Positions 41,548 through 53,340 of a stretch of DNA of 64,000 nt are shown here, in pieces. Numbering within the stretch: the stretch's first letter is position 1; each line of letters opens with the position of its first letter. Where the stretch lies: positions 62,001 through 126,000 of the forward strand of contig JAGIBL010000006.1 of the NCBI GenBank assembly GCA_017744365.1. Direction: 5' to 3'. The notes under the pieces are model-generated. The model saw nothing but the letters and a program-made list of their open reading frames with translations, was not told where the DNA came from and made no database searches. The position numbers and the translations under genes were made by a program. This DNA comes from Nocardioidaceae bacterium. Its GTDB lineage: Bacteria; Actinomycetota; Actinomycetes; Propionibacteriales; Nocardioidaceae.

Positions 41548-41583
41548 GTAGCGGGGGCAGGATTTGAACCTGCGACCTCTGGG
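41548..41583. repeat. Left attachment site (36-bp partial tRNA copy)
   Basis: Identical over 36 bases to 53266-53301, the 3' part of tRNA-fMet from the anticodon-arm 3' side through the T-arm to the acceptor end. The next base on each side differs. Only this fragment of the tRNA remains here, so no tRNA is made from it. Confidence 0.85.
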
Positions 41584-41892: not shown

Positions 41893-43002
41893 ATGACGCC
41901 ACGACGCGGCGACAACCTCGACACCGTCTGGGACCGGCCGGCGCACACCAAGGCGAAGCACGACATCTTGGTGAAGTACCTGCAGGCCTGGTTCGCGATC
42001 ATGGGGGGCTCGTCGTGGGTCTCAAAGGCCGGGGTGCTCGACGGCTTCGCCGGACCGGGCGTGTACAGCGAAGGGGAGCCGGGATCGCCGGTGCTCGTCC
42101 TCAACGCCTTGCTCGATCACGCCCACTTCGGGCGCTGGGACGGCACCGAGTTCATCTTCCTCTTCAACGAGCAGGACCCCGAGCGGTACGCCTCGCTGGA
42201 CGCGGTCATCGCCGACCTGGCCAACGACCCGAGTCGACCGCTCCCGAAGAACATCAAGATTCACCCTGCGAATCGCAACTTCAGCGAGTTGGGCGAGGAA
42301 CTCCTGAACGGCGTGACCAACGGACTCATCCCACTCTTCGCGTTCGTCGATCCTTTCGGCTACAAGGACTGCTCGATGGACCTGATCCGTCGGCTCCTGC
42401 AGTACGACAAGGGAGAGCTGTTCATCTACTTTGACTTCAACAGCGTGAACCGTTTCGCAACGGCAGGCAACGTGGACGACCGCTTCGAGGAACTCTTCGG
42501 CTGCGACGACTTCAAGAACGCGCCAGCGAGCGGCGAGGAGCGCCGAATCTTCCTGCACGACCTGTACGAGAGCCAGCTCAGGAAAGTCTGCTCCTTTGCT
42601 CACGTCCGCAGCTTCGCGATGGTCAACGAGAAGGGGCGCATTGGCAACTACCTGTTCTTCTGCACTCGTGACCTCCAAGCCTTCGACCGAATGAAGGCAG
42701 CGATGTGGTCACTCGACAGGAGCGGCGAGTACCGATTCGAAGATCGACTTGCAGACCAAGAAGTGCTGTTCGATCCCGAACTCGACACTCGGCCGCTCCA
42801 GGACGAACTTGCTCTCCACTTCGCCGGTCGGACGGTCTCGATCGACGAGGTCGTGAACTACGTGATCGCCGATACGCCCTATTACAGCGGCCAGGTCAGA
42901 AGATCGACCCTGAAGCCGATGCAAGCCGACGGAAGGATCTCGTCACCGAATCAGGTCCGTCGAGGGACGTATCCGGCTGGCACTCTGATCACGTTTCCCT
43001 AG
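41893..43002 (+). CDS. tcmP: Three-Cys-motif partner protein TcmP
   Basis: A 369-residue protein of the TcmP family (TIGR04474), named for its regular pairing with Gp37/Gp68 three-Cys proteins. The N-terminal half looks like a Rossmann methyltransferase: AKHDILVKYLQAW, then motif-I-like VLDGFAGPGVYSEG (Asp50 to Gly56), then motif-IV-like FVDPFGYKDC (Asp153-Pro154). The last 80 residues resemble a winged helix. Methyl transfer is inferred from these motifs and not shown for the family as far as I know. The gene is tail-to-tail with its partner, with one base between the stops, so the pair has separate promoters. It is the first gene of the element. Confidence 0.85.
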   Translation: MTPRRGDNLDTVWDRPAHTKAKHDILVKYLQAWFAIMGGSSWVSKAGVLDGFAGPGVYSEGEPGSPVLVLNALLDHAHFGRWDGTEFIFLFNEQDPERYASLDAVIADLANDPSRPLPKNIKIHPANRNFSELGEELLNGVTNGLIPLFAFVDPFGYKDCSMDLIRRLLQYDKGELFIYFDFNSVNRFATAGNVDDRFEELFGCDDFKNAPASGEERRIFLHDLYESQLRKVCSFAHVRSFAMVNEKGRIGNYLFFCTRDLQAFDRMKAAMWSLDRSGEYRFEDRLADQEVLFDPELDTRPLQDELALHFAGRTVSIDEVVNYVIADTPYYSGQVRRSTLKPMQADGRISSPNQVRRGTYPAGTLITFP

Positions 43003-43003
43003 A

Positions 43004-43750
43004 TCAAACACTCGCGAGCGCAGGCATGTCGTCCCAGGTACGGCCGTCGAGCTCGCGACCGTTGGCCTTCGGGGTACGACCGCCCCACTGCTTGAAGAAG
43101 AACGCAACCCCGGCCTCTCCGCACTGGTCACGGATGTCCTCGACCCACCACGATTCCATCGGCCTGGCCCGAGGCCCCGACTCACCACCCGCTATGACCC
43201 AGTCAATGCCCTGAAGGTTCAGGTCGGGAAGCGCCGTGAGCAGCGGCTCGCAAGACAGGAACCGCACCCTGGCCGGAGTTCGTCGCAGGTGGTCGATCCG
43301 GTCGACTGCGGCCGCCGACTCGACCGAGACGCCCATCCAAACGTTGTCGGGCCAGTCGAACTTGTCGGCGATCCGCTCAAGGCGAAGAGCACGCTTCGTC
43401 AGCACCTGATAGGTGTGCTGCGGCGTTTCCCGCATCACGTCGAACACGTCCTTGATGAAGTCGATCGGAACCTTCGCGTGGAACAGGTCAGACATGGAGT
43501 TCACGAACACGACCTTCGAGCCCGACCAGCGAAATGGCTCGACCAGCGACTTCGGATGCGTAGTGACAGCGAACCCAGGGCCGCTCGTAGCCGGGTTCCC
43601 ATCGTTCTGATACTTCTCGGCGCCCATAGCCTTAAGCCTCTTCGCGAGGGCAAGGGCGTAGCAGTTGTCGCACCCGGCCGCGACACGGTCGCAACCGGTC
43701 ACTGGATTCCAGGTGACCTCGGTCCATTCGATTGCGCTCTGAGTGGCCAT
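43004..43750 (-). CDS. Phage Gp37/Gp68-family three-Cys protein (DUF5131)
   Basis: A 248-residue member of the Gp37/Gp68 family (PF07505). Near the N-terminus it has WNPVTGCDRVAAGCDNCYA, with Cys20, Cys27 and Cys30 (C-X6-C-X2-C), the family's cluster motif. This resembles a radical-SAM iron-sulfur motif with a wider first gap; the partial barrel pattern that follows (FVNSMSDLFH, GVSVES, FLSCEPLL, WVIAGGESG) fits. Start ATG at 43750 has AGAAGG upstream. A perfect LexA box 15 bp before the start indicates DNA-damage induction. Reaction unknown; a nucleic-acid-modifying or repair role with TcmP is inference. Confidence 0.88.
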   Translation of the reverse strand: MATQSAIEWTEVTWNPVTGCDRVAAGCDNCYALALAKRLKAMGAEKYQNDGNPATSGPGFAVTTHPKSLVEPFRWSGSKVVFVNSMSDLFHAKVPIDFIKDVFDVMRETPQHTYQVLTKRALRLERIADKFDWPDNVWMGVSVESAAAVDRIDHLRRTPARVRFLSCEPLLTALPDLNLQGIDWVIAGGESGPRARPMESWWVEDIRDQCGEAGVAFFFKQWGGRTPKANGRELDGRTWDDMPALASV

Positions 43751-43764
43751 GACATTCGCCTTCT

Positions 43765-43780
43765 TCGAACATATGTTCGA
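43765..43780. promoter_or_regulatory. LexA (SOS) box before the Gp37/Gp68 gene
   Basis: TCGAACATATGTTCGA is a perfect 16-bp palindrome and a full match to the actinobacterial SOS-box consensus (TCGAAC-N4-GTTCGA). It lies 15 bp upstream of the start codon of the Gp37/Gp68 gene and reads into its promoter region. Confidence 0.85.
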
Positions 43781-43932
43781 CTCACGAACAACTCTAGTCT
43801 CAAGTCTGCCCCATGTCGAGGCCGATCTGGCAGTCTTCCGGAATACGTGCGGGTCATCCTCATCAGCGGTCTCCACGTCTTGGTGGACAACCCCGACCGC
43901 GGCCTCGCGCCCCGAGCACGCCGCGACCTGGC

Positions 43933-45847: not shown

Positions 45848-48319
45848 TCATCGGCGGCGCGTCTTGGGAGGTCGCTTAGCTGACGGAGGCGGGCGGTTCT
45901 GGAACGCCTCGGGAGGCCGAAGGCGATCCAGGAGCGGCTTGAGTGCGTCAGGTAGTTCGCCAACGTGACCGTCATAGCTGACGTGCACCAGTTCGCGACT
46001 CGCCTGGTCGAACACGAAAAGAGCCCCGCGCGGCAGGCCCAACTGGTGCTTCTTTAGGCGGAGATACCGCTCCTGATCCGCGATCGTGGCCGCAAGATCA
46101 ACGACGCCCGTTGGGTGCGTTGACCAGACAAGAAGCCAGCCGTCGGCGGCGTTGGTCATTTGGGTGACCGGAACCGCGACCTGCCGGCTGCGCCCGGGGT
46201 GCGGGTTGTCGAGGAGAATGTTCGCTTGGGTTGCGATCTGCTCCTGGAAAGCCGTGGACCCGCTGAGAAGAGTCGCCCCCAGGCTTAGCGCACCAAAGAC
46301 GCCGCGCTTCATGACCTCGTCGATGAGTGGGCCCGCTGGTGAGTGAATCATCGTCGGCTTCGGCACAATCGGCCCGCCTGCTCGGCCCTTGGAGTAGTGC
46401 CATGCGTCGAGCTGGTCAGTCCTACTGGTGACAAAGGCGACCCCCTGCTCGCGGAACCGCCGGCGAGAAGCAGGGGTGGGATGACCGGTGAACGGGAATG
46501 TCCTGTGCACTTCGTCGGGGTCGGGCTCGGCCCAGAGCATGCCGTCGAAGAACAGTAGAAACAGGTCGAGTTCGTCCGGAGCCATGAAGATGCGAGTCGT
46601 CAGCGGATCGCGCCGGCGCCGGAGGTACAAGAGGAACTCGGCAGGCCTGTCTACGAGTTCGCTGATCAACTCTAGATCGTGAAGGGAGACAGTCCAAGGG
46701 ATACTCGCGGGGTCGATCAGTCCAGCGCGCACCAGTTCAGCTGTTGCGGTGGTGACGCTCATGAGGTCGTCCAGACTGACTGCCACAGTGTGGATCTCAC
46801 GGATGTGGGACAGGTCGACCCATCCGTCGTCGGTGCGCACTCCCCCGTCGCGTTCAATGAGGGCGCCCAACCGCCCCGCTTGATCGGCAGCCTTGGTGAT
46901 GATGCTGGTTAAGTCAGTTCGCAGGCGTTGGGTCTTCCCCGCCTTGGCAACTGCGCTGACGGCGCCTGCCTTGTCCTCCACGACAAGGGCCACGTCATCG
47001 ACTACGACTAGGTGATCGCCCTCGACCCTCTTGCTGTACTTGGTCGGATCACCTTCCTGATCCTCGGCCTGGCTAGCAGGAATGAAGTAGTTGAACGCAT
47101 CCCTGAACACAGCGTTGGCCGGGAGCACTCGTTCGAGGGCCGCGTGTACCCGCGCTTCAACGAGATCCCCCCGATGGTTCTGATACGTCTCCCAGACTTC
47201 GGTGGTCTTCAGATACTCCTCGAGGTTCTCCTTGACCGCATCAGCTGAAAGCGTGTGGTGAGGGAGCAGGACGCGGTCACCGTCAGCCGCGATGAAGGGG
47301 CGCGGTCGCAGGGGATTGTCTCCGGCTATGAATGCTTCGACGACATCCGCTGGAGTCTGTCCTGAGATATCGACCGTGAACCGTTCGACAACCGCACGCA
47401 CGCGGAGCTCCTCGAGCCCGGACTCAGCAATAACCTCCGCAACCGGAACAGTTGACGCTTCCTGGTTAGGCTCGAAGAAGGCTCCAACCGCCTCAAGCCA
47501 ACGGGCGCGCAGTTCTGCCTTGAGTTCTTCACTAGGCTCGGCATCTTCGTCACTCGCAGAGTCGCTCAGTGCGGCTTCTCGGAGACTGTTGACGGCTTCA
47601 GCGAAGGTCGCACCGCGGTCGTTGATCTGATCCTGTTGGATCTCGTGCACGACAGTTAGAACCCGGATTGCGTCGTGTGCGTCGAAGCCGAGCCCGGCAA
47701 CCAATTCTTCGCGCACAGCCACGACACCGTCGAGAAGGTCGGTCACAGTGCGCTCAGCCATGTCGGCGTATGAAGTGTTGCGAATCAACACTTGCGACCC
47801 TCGCGCCAACATCGAGATGAACGCGAGCTTGTCCGACCGATCGGCGGTCATCGCGGCCCGAAGGTGCGACAGGTTGAACAGGAGGTCCAAGTCGTCCTTG
47901 GCATGTGAGATCAGCTCACTCATCTCCTGCACCTCTGGGGCTGGGCCGGTCGGCGGACCGCCCGCCTGCGCCTCAGCGGAGAGGGCGATCAGGGCGAGCA
48001 ACTCGACATGGGCGGCGGACGCGTCCGGATCCACGTGGTACTCGCCATCGCGCATCCACGGGAGCACCGCCATCCGCGCTGCTTCGATCAGCGAAACCGC
48101 ACCAAACCTGCGCGCGCGCTCGACAAATTCTTGCAACCTCGCGTCGAACTGATCCTGTATCGAACCCGCACGGTCCTCGGAGCCTCCAAGCGAGTTCAGG
48201 ATCGCCTCAAGGTCGTGCATCTGCCCCAAGAAGTGTTCGGCGTGCACGTCAAGAACAGGGGCGTTCAACTTCGCCTTCTTCTGCCTCTTGTTGCGAGCAG
48301 CCCTGCGCTTGTTCGTCAC
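45848..48319 (-). CDS. Large protein with a PD-(D/E)XK-like nuclease centre, unknown function
   Basis: An 823-residue protein from GTG at 48319. The N-terminus is strongly basic (KRRAARNKRQKKAK). Residues 20-370 are mostly helical and not recognised. The centre has a nuclease-like pattern: Glu388 in RGDLVEARVHAAL, Asp435 in VEGDHLVVVDD, then Glu448-Asp449-Lys450 in VVEDKAG, matching E-D-(E)XK of NERD/restriction-like folds. The C-terminal 350 residues are unrecognised, with a Pro/Arg/Lys-rich tail. No helicase or ATPase motif is seen. As the largest cargo gene of the island, a defence role against other mobile DNA is a reasonable guess, not shown. Confidence 0.75.
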   Translation of the reverse strand: MTNKRRAARNKRQKKAKLNAPVLDVHAEHFLGQMHDLEAILNSLGGSEDRAGSIQDQFDARLQEFVERARRFGAVSLIEAARMAVLPWMRDGEYHVDPDASAAHVELLALIALSAEAQAGGPPTGPAPEVQEMSELISHAKDDLDLLFNLSHLRAAMTADRSDKLAFISMLARGSQVLIRNTSYADMAERTVTDLLDGVVAVREELVAGLGFDAHDAIRVLTVVHEIQQDQINDRGATFAEAVNSLREAALSDSASDEDAEPSEELKAELRARWLEAVGAFFEPNQEASTVPVAEVIAESGLEELRVRAVVERFTVDISGQTPADVVEAFIAGDNPLRPRPFIAADGDRVLLPHHTLSADAVKENLEEYLKTTEVWETYQNHRGDLVEARVHAALERVLPANAVFRDAFNYFIPASQAEDQEGDPTKYSKRVEGDHLVVVDDVALVVEDKAGAVSAVAKAGKTQRLRTDLTSIITKAADQAGRLGALIERDGGVRTDDGWVDLSHIREIHTVAVSLDDLMSVTTATAELVRAGLIDPASIPWTVSLHDLELISELVDRPAEFLLYLRRRRDPLTTRIFMAPDELDLFLLFFDGMLWAEPDPDEVHRTFPFTGHPTPASRRRFREQGVAFVTSRTDQLDAWHYSKGRAGGPIVPKPTMIHSPAGPLIDEVMKRGVFGALSLGATLLSGSTAFQEQIATQANILLDNPHPGRSRQVAVPVTQMTNAADGWLLVWSTHPTGVVDLAATIADQERYLRLKKHQLGLPRGALFVFDQASRELVHVSYDGHVGELPDALKPLLDRLRPPEAFQNRPPPSAKRPPKTRRR

Positions 48320-51518: not shown

Positions 51519-51604
51519 CAGCCGACCGGGCGTCACCCGGCCTCCTAGCCAAATCAACAAACACCACTTAAGTTCCGTCTACCTTCAACCCTTTGGAGCA
51601 ACCC

Positions 51605-52821
51605 ATGGCCCGGCCGACCAGCCTTCCGTACACCCTCGGCAAGATCACCTACTCCCCGCACCCGACCCGTAAGGGCGAGGTCCAGGCCCGCGGCTACTTC
51701 GTCAACGGCAACCGCGTCCGGCGTGAGATCACCGCCCGCGGCAAGTCCGAGCCCAGCGCCAAGCGAGCACTCCAGAAGAAGGTGGATGCGGAGCGCGATC
51801 GGTTCCGTGGCGGGACAACCTCCTGTCCTCGGAGACCGCGCTCTCCCGGGCGGCAGACATCTGGATCGACTGGAAGCGTCGCGAGAAGAAGGGTGGCAAG
51901 CCACTCGCACCTCAGACGCTGAAGGACTACGAGGGGTACGTCGCCCGCTCGATTCACGGCTCGACGCTCGCGAACCTGACGTTGGCGGAAGCCAACAGCA
52001 TCGGCCGGATCGAGACCTGGCTCGAGGTCATCGCCGACGAGCGTGGAGAGACAGCGGCCCGCCAGTCGAAGAAGGTTCTTTCAGGCATTCTCGGCATGGC
52101 CGAACGGCGCGGAGCCATCCCCGCGAGTGTGGTCTCGCGGGTCCAGACGCCGGGAGCCCGCCCGGGAAGCACCGGAGACCGTCGCTGCGTCACAGAAGAC
52201 TGCGACTACGACTGCAGCAAGCGCCACCTCGACACCGAGCGGGCCTTCACCGCCGAGGAGGCACTCGCCGTCCAGGAGGCGGCGGACAAGGCCAAGGCCG
52301 ACGTGGGAGACCTGGCTGCGTTCCTTTTCGGAACCGGCACGCGCATCGCCGAGGCGCTCCACAACACCGCGTGGGCCGACGTGGACCTCGACGCTCGTAC
52401 CGTGCGCGTCCGCGGGACGAAGACCGCTCGCGCAGACCGCACACTGGTGATCAGCGACCAGCTCGCCGACCGTCTGTGTAAGCGTGCCGAGAAGTTCGGT
52501 AGGAACGGCCTGGTCTTCGGGATCACCTACTTCCACTCGAAGATCGGCGAGCCTCGCGACCGCAACAACGTGTCCAAGGCCCTTCGGCGCGCGTTCGCCA
52601 GCGCGGACGTGCGGTGGGCGGGTACACACACCTTCCGGCGGACGGTGGCTACGTGGCTCGACGAGAACGGTGCTCCGCTCGCCGAGATCGCGAACCAGCT
52701 CGGCCACGCCGACACGAACGTGACGGCCGGCTACCTCGGGCGCACCACCCAGCCGACCAGGGCAGCGAGCGTGATGGTCCTCCAGCGACCGGGCGACCTG
52801 CGGCTCGTCTCCGGTGAGTGA
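51605..52821 (+). pseudogene. int: Tyrosine recombinase (integrase), frameshifted
   Basis: A tRNA-targeting integrase of about 405 residues in two frames. The first frame from ATG 51605 (GGAG upstream) codes the arm-binding domain (GYFVNGNRVRREITARGKSE) to about 51805. The second continues from about 51808 (WRDNLLSSETALSRAADIW) through core-binding and catalytic domains: Arg in GTGTRIAEAL, HTFRR, the His of NQLGHADTNVTAGY and the nucleophilic Tyr in AGYLGR. The join near 51800-51817 has no slippery sequence, so a one-base indel is likely; a sequencing error is possible. Adjacent to the right att site. Confidence 0.8.
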
Positions 52822-53263: not shown

Positions 53264-53340
53264 TGGTAGCGGGGGCAGGATTTGAACCTGCGACCTCTGG
53301 GTTATGAGCCCAGCGAGCTACCGAGCTGCTCCACCCCGCG
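53264..53340 (-). tRNA. tRNA-fMet (initiator), anticodon CAT
   Basis: A 77-nt tRNA with encoded CCA. It begins CGCGGGG and ends with the complementary CCCCGCTACCA; the initiator traits are the unpaired first C against A and the three G-C pairs in the anticodon stem (GGG CTCATAA CCC). The element is integrated at its 3' end; bases 53266-53301 are the repeat shared with 41548-41583. Confidence 0.92.
53266..53301. repeat. Right attachment site inside tRNA-fMet
   Basis: The 36-bp copy identical to 41548-41583, covering the T-arm and acceptor 3' side of the tRNA. The element side supplies this 3' part and so keeps the tRNA intact. Confidence 0.85.

Follow-up and report, generated by a model that had tools for sequence, protein, structure and literature searches.

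What does a pair of mobile genes accomplish when one encodes a predicted radical S-adenosylmethionine (SAM) enzyme placed directly behind a LexA box and the other a methyltransferase-like partner? This question is raised by a 64,000-nucleotide stretch of a Nocardioidaceae bacterium (contig JAGIBL010000006.1, positions 62,001 to 126,000; hereafter the window), in which the genes for a three-Cys-motif partner (TcmP) and a member of the DUF5131 (phage Gp37/Gp68) family are located on an integrative element. We tentatively interpret them as a mobile two-enzyme module for nucleic-acid modification, which may jointly modify a nucleobase as part of a stress response or of defence and whose DUF5131 component would be released from LexA upon DNA damage. 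The association of the pair, the predicted folds, the invariant cysteines as well as the LexA box and its recurrence are computed directly; from these we infer a metal cluster, SAM cleavage, methylation, a shared substrate, a defence role, and induction.

The TcmP gene (41893..43002, plus strand) encodes a protein of 369 aa and the DUF5131 gene (43004..43750, minus strand, start codon ATG at 43750) one of 248 aa. Both are arranged tail-to-tail, as stated in a preliminary description of the locus, with the TcmP stop TAG at 43000-43002 and the DUF5131 stop at 43004-43006 being separated by the single base A at 43003. DUF5131 scored 343 bits against PF07505 (Pfam gathering score 28.9) and TcmP 152 bits against TIGR04474 (NCBIfam cut-off 53), a family whose name designates it as partner of the three-Cys proteins; both are thus members. 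The PADLOC models PDC-M30A and PDC-M30B matched TcmP and DUF5131 with 205 and 363 bits, respectively, and, the genes being adjacent, the pair has the gene content of PDC-M30. The whole genome contains one DUF5131 gene. Upstream of it, the perfect palindrome TCGAACATATGTTCGA (43765..43780) confirmed the exact LexA (SOS) box described before, although at a distance of 14 instead of 15 bases from the ATG. On the minus strand, it starts approximately 10 nt downstream of the -10 hexamer of a promoter-like sequence (43791..43819; -35 TCGACA, 17-nt spacer, -10 TAGAGT; a consensus match only), and judging from this position past the -10, a bound repressor would block initiation. Allowing one mismatch to CGAACN4GTTCG, the window contained 4 matches vs. 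3.4 expected, which is chance level and gives weight to the exactness of the box, the sole exact site in the window.

Extension of this search to the whole genome (4.76 Mb) revealed 16 exact CGAACN4GTTCG sites and one site of the reversed pattern. Pfam examination of the open reading frames (ORFs) adjoining 10 of the other 15 sites gave RecA, UvrA, a 2OG-Fe(II) oxygenase, DUF4032, an aminoacyl-tRNA editing domain, and five DUF222 proteins, one of them scoring just under the Pfam cut-off. 2OG-Fe(II) oxygenases are the family of AlkB, and DUF222 genes of the 13E12 type are known LexA targets. As RecA and UvrA adjoin the same palindrome, it marks the host SOS regulon, and on the level of sequence the DUF5131 promoter belongs to this regulon by carrying the palindrome found before recA and uvrA. 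In S. venezuelae (Streptomyces venezuelae), in vitro validation extends to less perfect LexA boxes, e.g., that of recA, according to the accessible part of PMC9380542. As a side observation in our genome, the DUF222 genes at L167, L169, L170, L174, L175, and L177 are each preceded by an exact LexA box at a distance of 13-18 bp from a start codon; five were assigned by Pfam, while L175 is probably a sixth DUF222 gene by its similar N-terminus.

Recurrence of the box was analyzed within 200 bp upstream of the DUF5131 start in loci drawn from samples of the host phylum and class and from named genomes. Of 97 Actinomycetota loci, 84 were retained after removal of 12 with a partial, split, or low-scoring DUF5131 (L021, L023, L029, L030, L061, L065, L080, L082-L086) and of one duplicate (L108, identical to L009), and loci seeded by TcmP (L031-L060) were excluded from the box counts. 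Exact CGAACN4GTTCG sites were present in 7/84 upstream regions (shuffle mean 0.02) and sites with at most one mismatch in 16/84 (shuffle mean 0.59, maximum 4 in 200 mononucleotide shuffles), the in-gene control being 0/84 for both. At two mismatches, 30/84 upstream regions compare with 7.24 in shuffles and 7/84 in genes. The remainder of the 84 loci, comprising 459,160 positions, hosted one exact and 41 one-mismatch sites, corresponding to 0.03 and 1.40 per extent of the upstream regions searched. Carriers of a box (at most one mismatch) belong to Nocardioides, Mycolicibacterium, Mycobacterium, Rhodococcus, Pseudonocardia, Amycolatopsis, Micromonospora, Salinispora, Blastococcus, and Streptomyces, and include an Acidimicrobiales bacterium. 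In nine of the ten boxed tail-to-tail loci the site starts at -26 to -46 and in the tenth, L013, at -179; where TcmP comes next in the same orientation (five boxed loci), it lies at -57 (L014) or at -125 to -133, and in L101, located on a contig that stops early, at -50.

The distribution of the box was put in order on a quick protein tree, on which all boxed loci except L013 (site at -179) were labeled. The 15 boxed rows need at least 13 changes, six being forced by well-supported branches, and clustering hardly exceeded that of shuffled labels (mean 14.0; 125/500 shuffles as low), meaning that SOS control repeatedly arose or disappeared. A PafBC-type motif precedes DUF5131 in 3/84 loci. Before TcmP, a one-mismatch box was found in 3/71 readable Actinomycetota upstream regions (L010, L018, L090), and in L090 (Mycolicibacterium tusciae) both genes are boxed, DUF5131 by an exact site. 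In place of the box, L073, L075, L076, and L077 contain another perfect palindrome, CGCACATATGTGCG, at -52 or -53 upstream of DUF5131, a candidate for a variant LexA box or the site of another repressor. Outside the Actinomycetota, no regularity emerged when we searched for GAACN4GTTC, CTGTN8ACAG, GTTCN7GTTC, and GAACN7GAAC before both genes. At 39 loci from other or unassigned groups, none occurred exactly before DUF5131; before TcmP an exact pattern was detected in 2/35 of these (L131 and L163; four patterns, without a shuffle control). Among viral loci, raw counts without a chance control gave an exact pattern before DUF5131 in five (L192, L202, L204, L220, L227) and before TcmP in two more (L221, L231).

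That the two families are regular partners, as claimed beforehand, was borne out on genome level: among the 396 genomes sampled from the host phylum, DUF5131 was found in 43 and TcmP in 41, with both being present in 29 vs. 4.5 expected. DUF5131 also occurs in 34/295 genomes of the class of a betaproteobacterium (G752), in phages, and on plasmids. TcmP was present at 73 of the 84 Actinomycetota DUF5131 loci (none in the fetched stretch at 11, some stretches being short), in 39 tail-to-tail, in 26 as DUF5131 then TcmP, in 7 as TcmP then DUF5131, and in one head-to-head; in L099, counted as tail-to-tail, approximately 2.8 kb lie between the genes. In other or unassigned groups, TcmP accompanied DUF5131 at 35/39 loci, always upstream on the same strand, and two of the four loci lacking it start at a contig end. 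For the betaproteobacterial class (19/30 loci with TcmP) and viral contigs (37/80), the TcmP profile was built from proteins of the phylum Actinomycetota and may miss distant ones. Since the association survives several rearrangements, it is good evidence of a joint function. Phage copies of DUF5131 often lack a recognised TcmP, as in Mycobacterium phage Squirty, where DUF5131 lies near a replication initiation gene; this suggests that TcmP may not always be required by the radical enzyme. In Gordonia phage Jablanski, the pair sits between the integrase and the immunity repressor.

The likeness of DUF5131 to a variant radical SAM enzyme had been proposed together with structure prediction as the test on which it could fail. 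The predicted structure shows a radical-SAM barrel with spore photoproduct lyase (SPL) as nearest fold and viperin as second neighbor, and the proposed C-X6-C-X2-C motif is represented by C20, C27, and C30, invariant across 72 aligned DUF5131 proteins. The SPL family PF20903 was absent among the Pfam families matched by these 72 members, and a sequence search of solved structures returned nothing at E up to 1. At L029 (1483-3453, minus strand), a 657-aa DUF5131 ORF is interrupted directly at the three-Cys motif by an insert of approximately 340 aa, which contains a LAGLIDADG_3 domain and is probably an active-site intein. For TcmP, likewise suspected of being methyltransferase-like, a Rossmann methyltransferase fold was predicted, with RlmJ as best match and a C-terminal GMT-wHTH winged helix at residues 283-350, just under the Pfam cut-off. 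Its motif IV reads DPFGY, so the catalytic DPPY of RlmJ is not matched; motif IV of Trm1 is also DPFG. A sequence search of solved structures with TcmP gave weak, unrelated matches only.

Based on these data, the two-enzyme module would operate as follows. DUF5131, as an SPL-fold radical SAM enzyme, would bind a [4Fe-4S] cluster on its three cysteines and generate a 5'-deoxyadenosyl radical, while TcmP, ending in a winged helix, would be a SAM-binding methyltransferase of the RlmJ/Trm1 type. Their common target might be one nucleic acid base, altered as part of a stress response or of phage defence, with RNA being the more likely substrate than DNA in view of the nearest structures of TcmP. 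In the present element, LexA bound just downstream of the -10 would repress the DUF5131 promoter until DNA damage occurs. Since transcription of TcmP comes from the opposite side, the ratio of radical enzyme to TcmP would increase upon damage. Damage sensing is favoured by the SOS link, defence by the mobile setting together with PDC-M30.

Several observations weigh against this interpretation. With up to one mismatch allowed, the box is missing from 68/84 Actinomycetota upstream regions, including that of the nearest named relative L087 (83% identity), and none of the 30 loci from the class of the betaproteobacterium has an exact match to any of the four SOS patterns before DUF5131 or TcmP, all 19 TcmP upstream regions being long enough for the search. 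The expected conservation of the box therefore holds for a minority of Actinomycetota loci, and SOS control is not intrinsic to the pair. In the fetched stretches, 43/80 viral loci have no recognised TcmP (remote homologues may escape the profile, and some contigs stop short), and 8/30 TcmP-seeded loci have no DUF5131 at E 1e-10, with L060 showing an adjoining weak Pfam match. Radical SAM enzymes usually carry CX3CX2C, from which the CX6CX2C spacing deviates. Profile comparisons were not significant for DUF5131 with SPL (hhalign probability 1.4) or for TcmP with RlmJ (2.0), the latter scoring 16 bits with one TcmP profile and 6 bits with a second, and a substrate common to both enzymes is itself presumed.

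Among the alternatives, anti-phage defence in the sense of PDC-M30 is a serious possibility, falling short of probable. Here, the LexA boxes would be a secondary trigger upon DNA damage by phage or mobile-element conflict, and a modified RNA or nucleotide may stop the phage, as the product of viperin does. Apart from the PADLOC model matches and viperin as structural neighbor, the vicinity of the genes is consistent with this: a Rhodococcus plasmid hosts a DUF262 protein and an EcoRI-type methyltransferase next to the pair, and in Sinorhizobium meliloti the locus number of the TcmP gene SMa2243 is two from that of the Hna defence gene SMa2245, as given in the accessible part of PMC12445080. 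Of 100 P. aeruginosa strains, 32 carry PDC-M30 by prediction, and 68.8% of these carriers were phage-resistant, a correlation only (PMC10855318, available portion). However, PDC systems are guilt-by-embedding predictions, no plaque assay was found in the literature searched, and our PADLOC scan of 78 flanking ORFs (25 of 48 families listed, one member each) had no control. DNA repair is a less probable alternative. DUF5131 would in this case directly reverse a lesion or cross-link like SPL, being SOS-induced like SplB-type proteins, and TcmP would bind or mark the lesion. Its nearest fold fits, as does the best hhalign path, which, although not significant, aligns the cysteines and the VFxxxxxD and (V/L)TK stretches with those of SPL in order. 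In the accessible parts of the respective papers, SplB-like radical SAM proteins occur in SOS gene neighbourhoods (PMC3765255), and a radical SAM protein of S. venezuelae with a LexA site is induced 20-fold by mitomycin (PMC9380542); we regard both as precedents from another family. A repair enzyme should, however, be chromosomal and more uniformly SOS-controlled than the patchy and often mobile DUF5131, barrel similarity does not transfer substrate, and the nearest TcmP structures are RNA methyltransferases.

Less probable still is a pathway of two SAM enzymes, in which TcmP would methylate an exocyclic amine and the SPL-like DUF5131 would rearrange or reverse the base or lesion, repeatedly wired to LexA by Actinomycetota elements for damage or phage attack; if true, it would be new. 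Finally, the LexA box could have been captured by chance or transiently, with the pair being ordinary constitutive mobile cargo, as its absence from most loci and its near-random scatter on the tree might suggest. The exact boxes are nevertheless far above chance and confined upstream, with 7/84 regions vs. one site in all other positions of these loci, which makes this explanation quite improbable.

The integrative character of the region, postulated before, was confirmed by identical 36-bp direct repeats resembling attachment sites, the left one (41548..41583) being a copy of the tRNA-Met 3' end and the right one (53266..53301) lying within tRNA-Met (53264-53340, minus strand). In the 11.7-kb stretch between them, the pair occupies one end and the tyrosine integrase (51593..52821, plus strand) has its catalytic domain (51982-52821; PF00589 3.7e-20, phrog_1) near the tRNA. 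A piece resembling the integrase N-terminus by eye begins at 51593 in another frame, so the gene may be interrupted and the element may be immobile now. Further content comprises an acetyltransferase-like ORF, a DUF3631 protein, an excisionase-like helix-turn-helix protein, and an 823-aa ORF (45848-48319, minus strand), which had no Pfam, PADLOC, or PHROGs match and a sub-threshold NCBIfam match; its ALVVEDKAG stretch presumably resembles a nuclease core. A search for an empty integration site located tRNA-Met in five relatives but did not reveal the left flank beside it in their 3-kb loci, so that no such site was demonstrated. Element escape, formerly considered as a role of the pair, was discarded for lack of support, as no exact LexA box lies near the integrase. 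Altogether, the earlier interpretation is partly supported.

A full-text literature search by family names, with most subscription papers, all preprints, and the slashed name outside its reach, gave passing mentions without function or reaction, in agreement with the earlier statement, which had overlooked the PADLOC listing as PDC-M30. Neither LexA boxes upstream of DUF5131 nor an assignment of the SPL and RlmJ folds turned up in the literature covered by this search. DUF5131 is thus spread across the host phylum, the betaproteobacterial class, phages, and plasmids, yet without a reaction in the literature searched. As the folds narrow the chemistries to radical SAM reactions and the methylation of a base, and the boxes provide a condition for induction, this long-unassigned pair becomes directly testable, with natural boxed and unboxed homologues available for comparison.

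Compared with known systems, DUF5131 differs from SPL (PF20903) by CX6CX2C instead of CX3CX2C, by being approximately 90 residues shorter, and by the lack of a significant profile link. Viperin is the second-best fold by 2.6 Z, and its nucleotide substrate is not indicated for DUF5131. TcmP departs from RlmJ, the 23S rRNA m6A2030 methyltransferase, by its motif IV, the extra winged helix, and the weak sequence score. Radical SAM mobile pair A (TIGR04471) is by name likewise a mobile radical SAM pair, but DUF5131 scored 75.6 bits, far below the cut-off of 355. S. venezuelae vnz_31145 shares the radical SAM assignment, the LexA site, and mitomycin C induction; the accessible text (PMC9380542) likens it to thymine cross-link repair enzymes and does not contain the terms Gp37/Gp68 and three-Cys. 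PDC-M30 is a candidate only, the available text on it does not mention a LexA box, and DUF5131 scores slightly higher with PDC-M41B (378 bits) than with PDC-M30B. The locus nevertheless shares with PDC-M30 its adjacent genes and strong model matches, with TcmP corresponding to M30A and DUF5131 to M30B.
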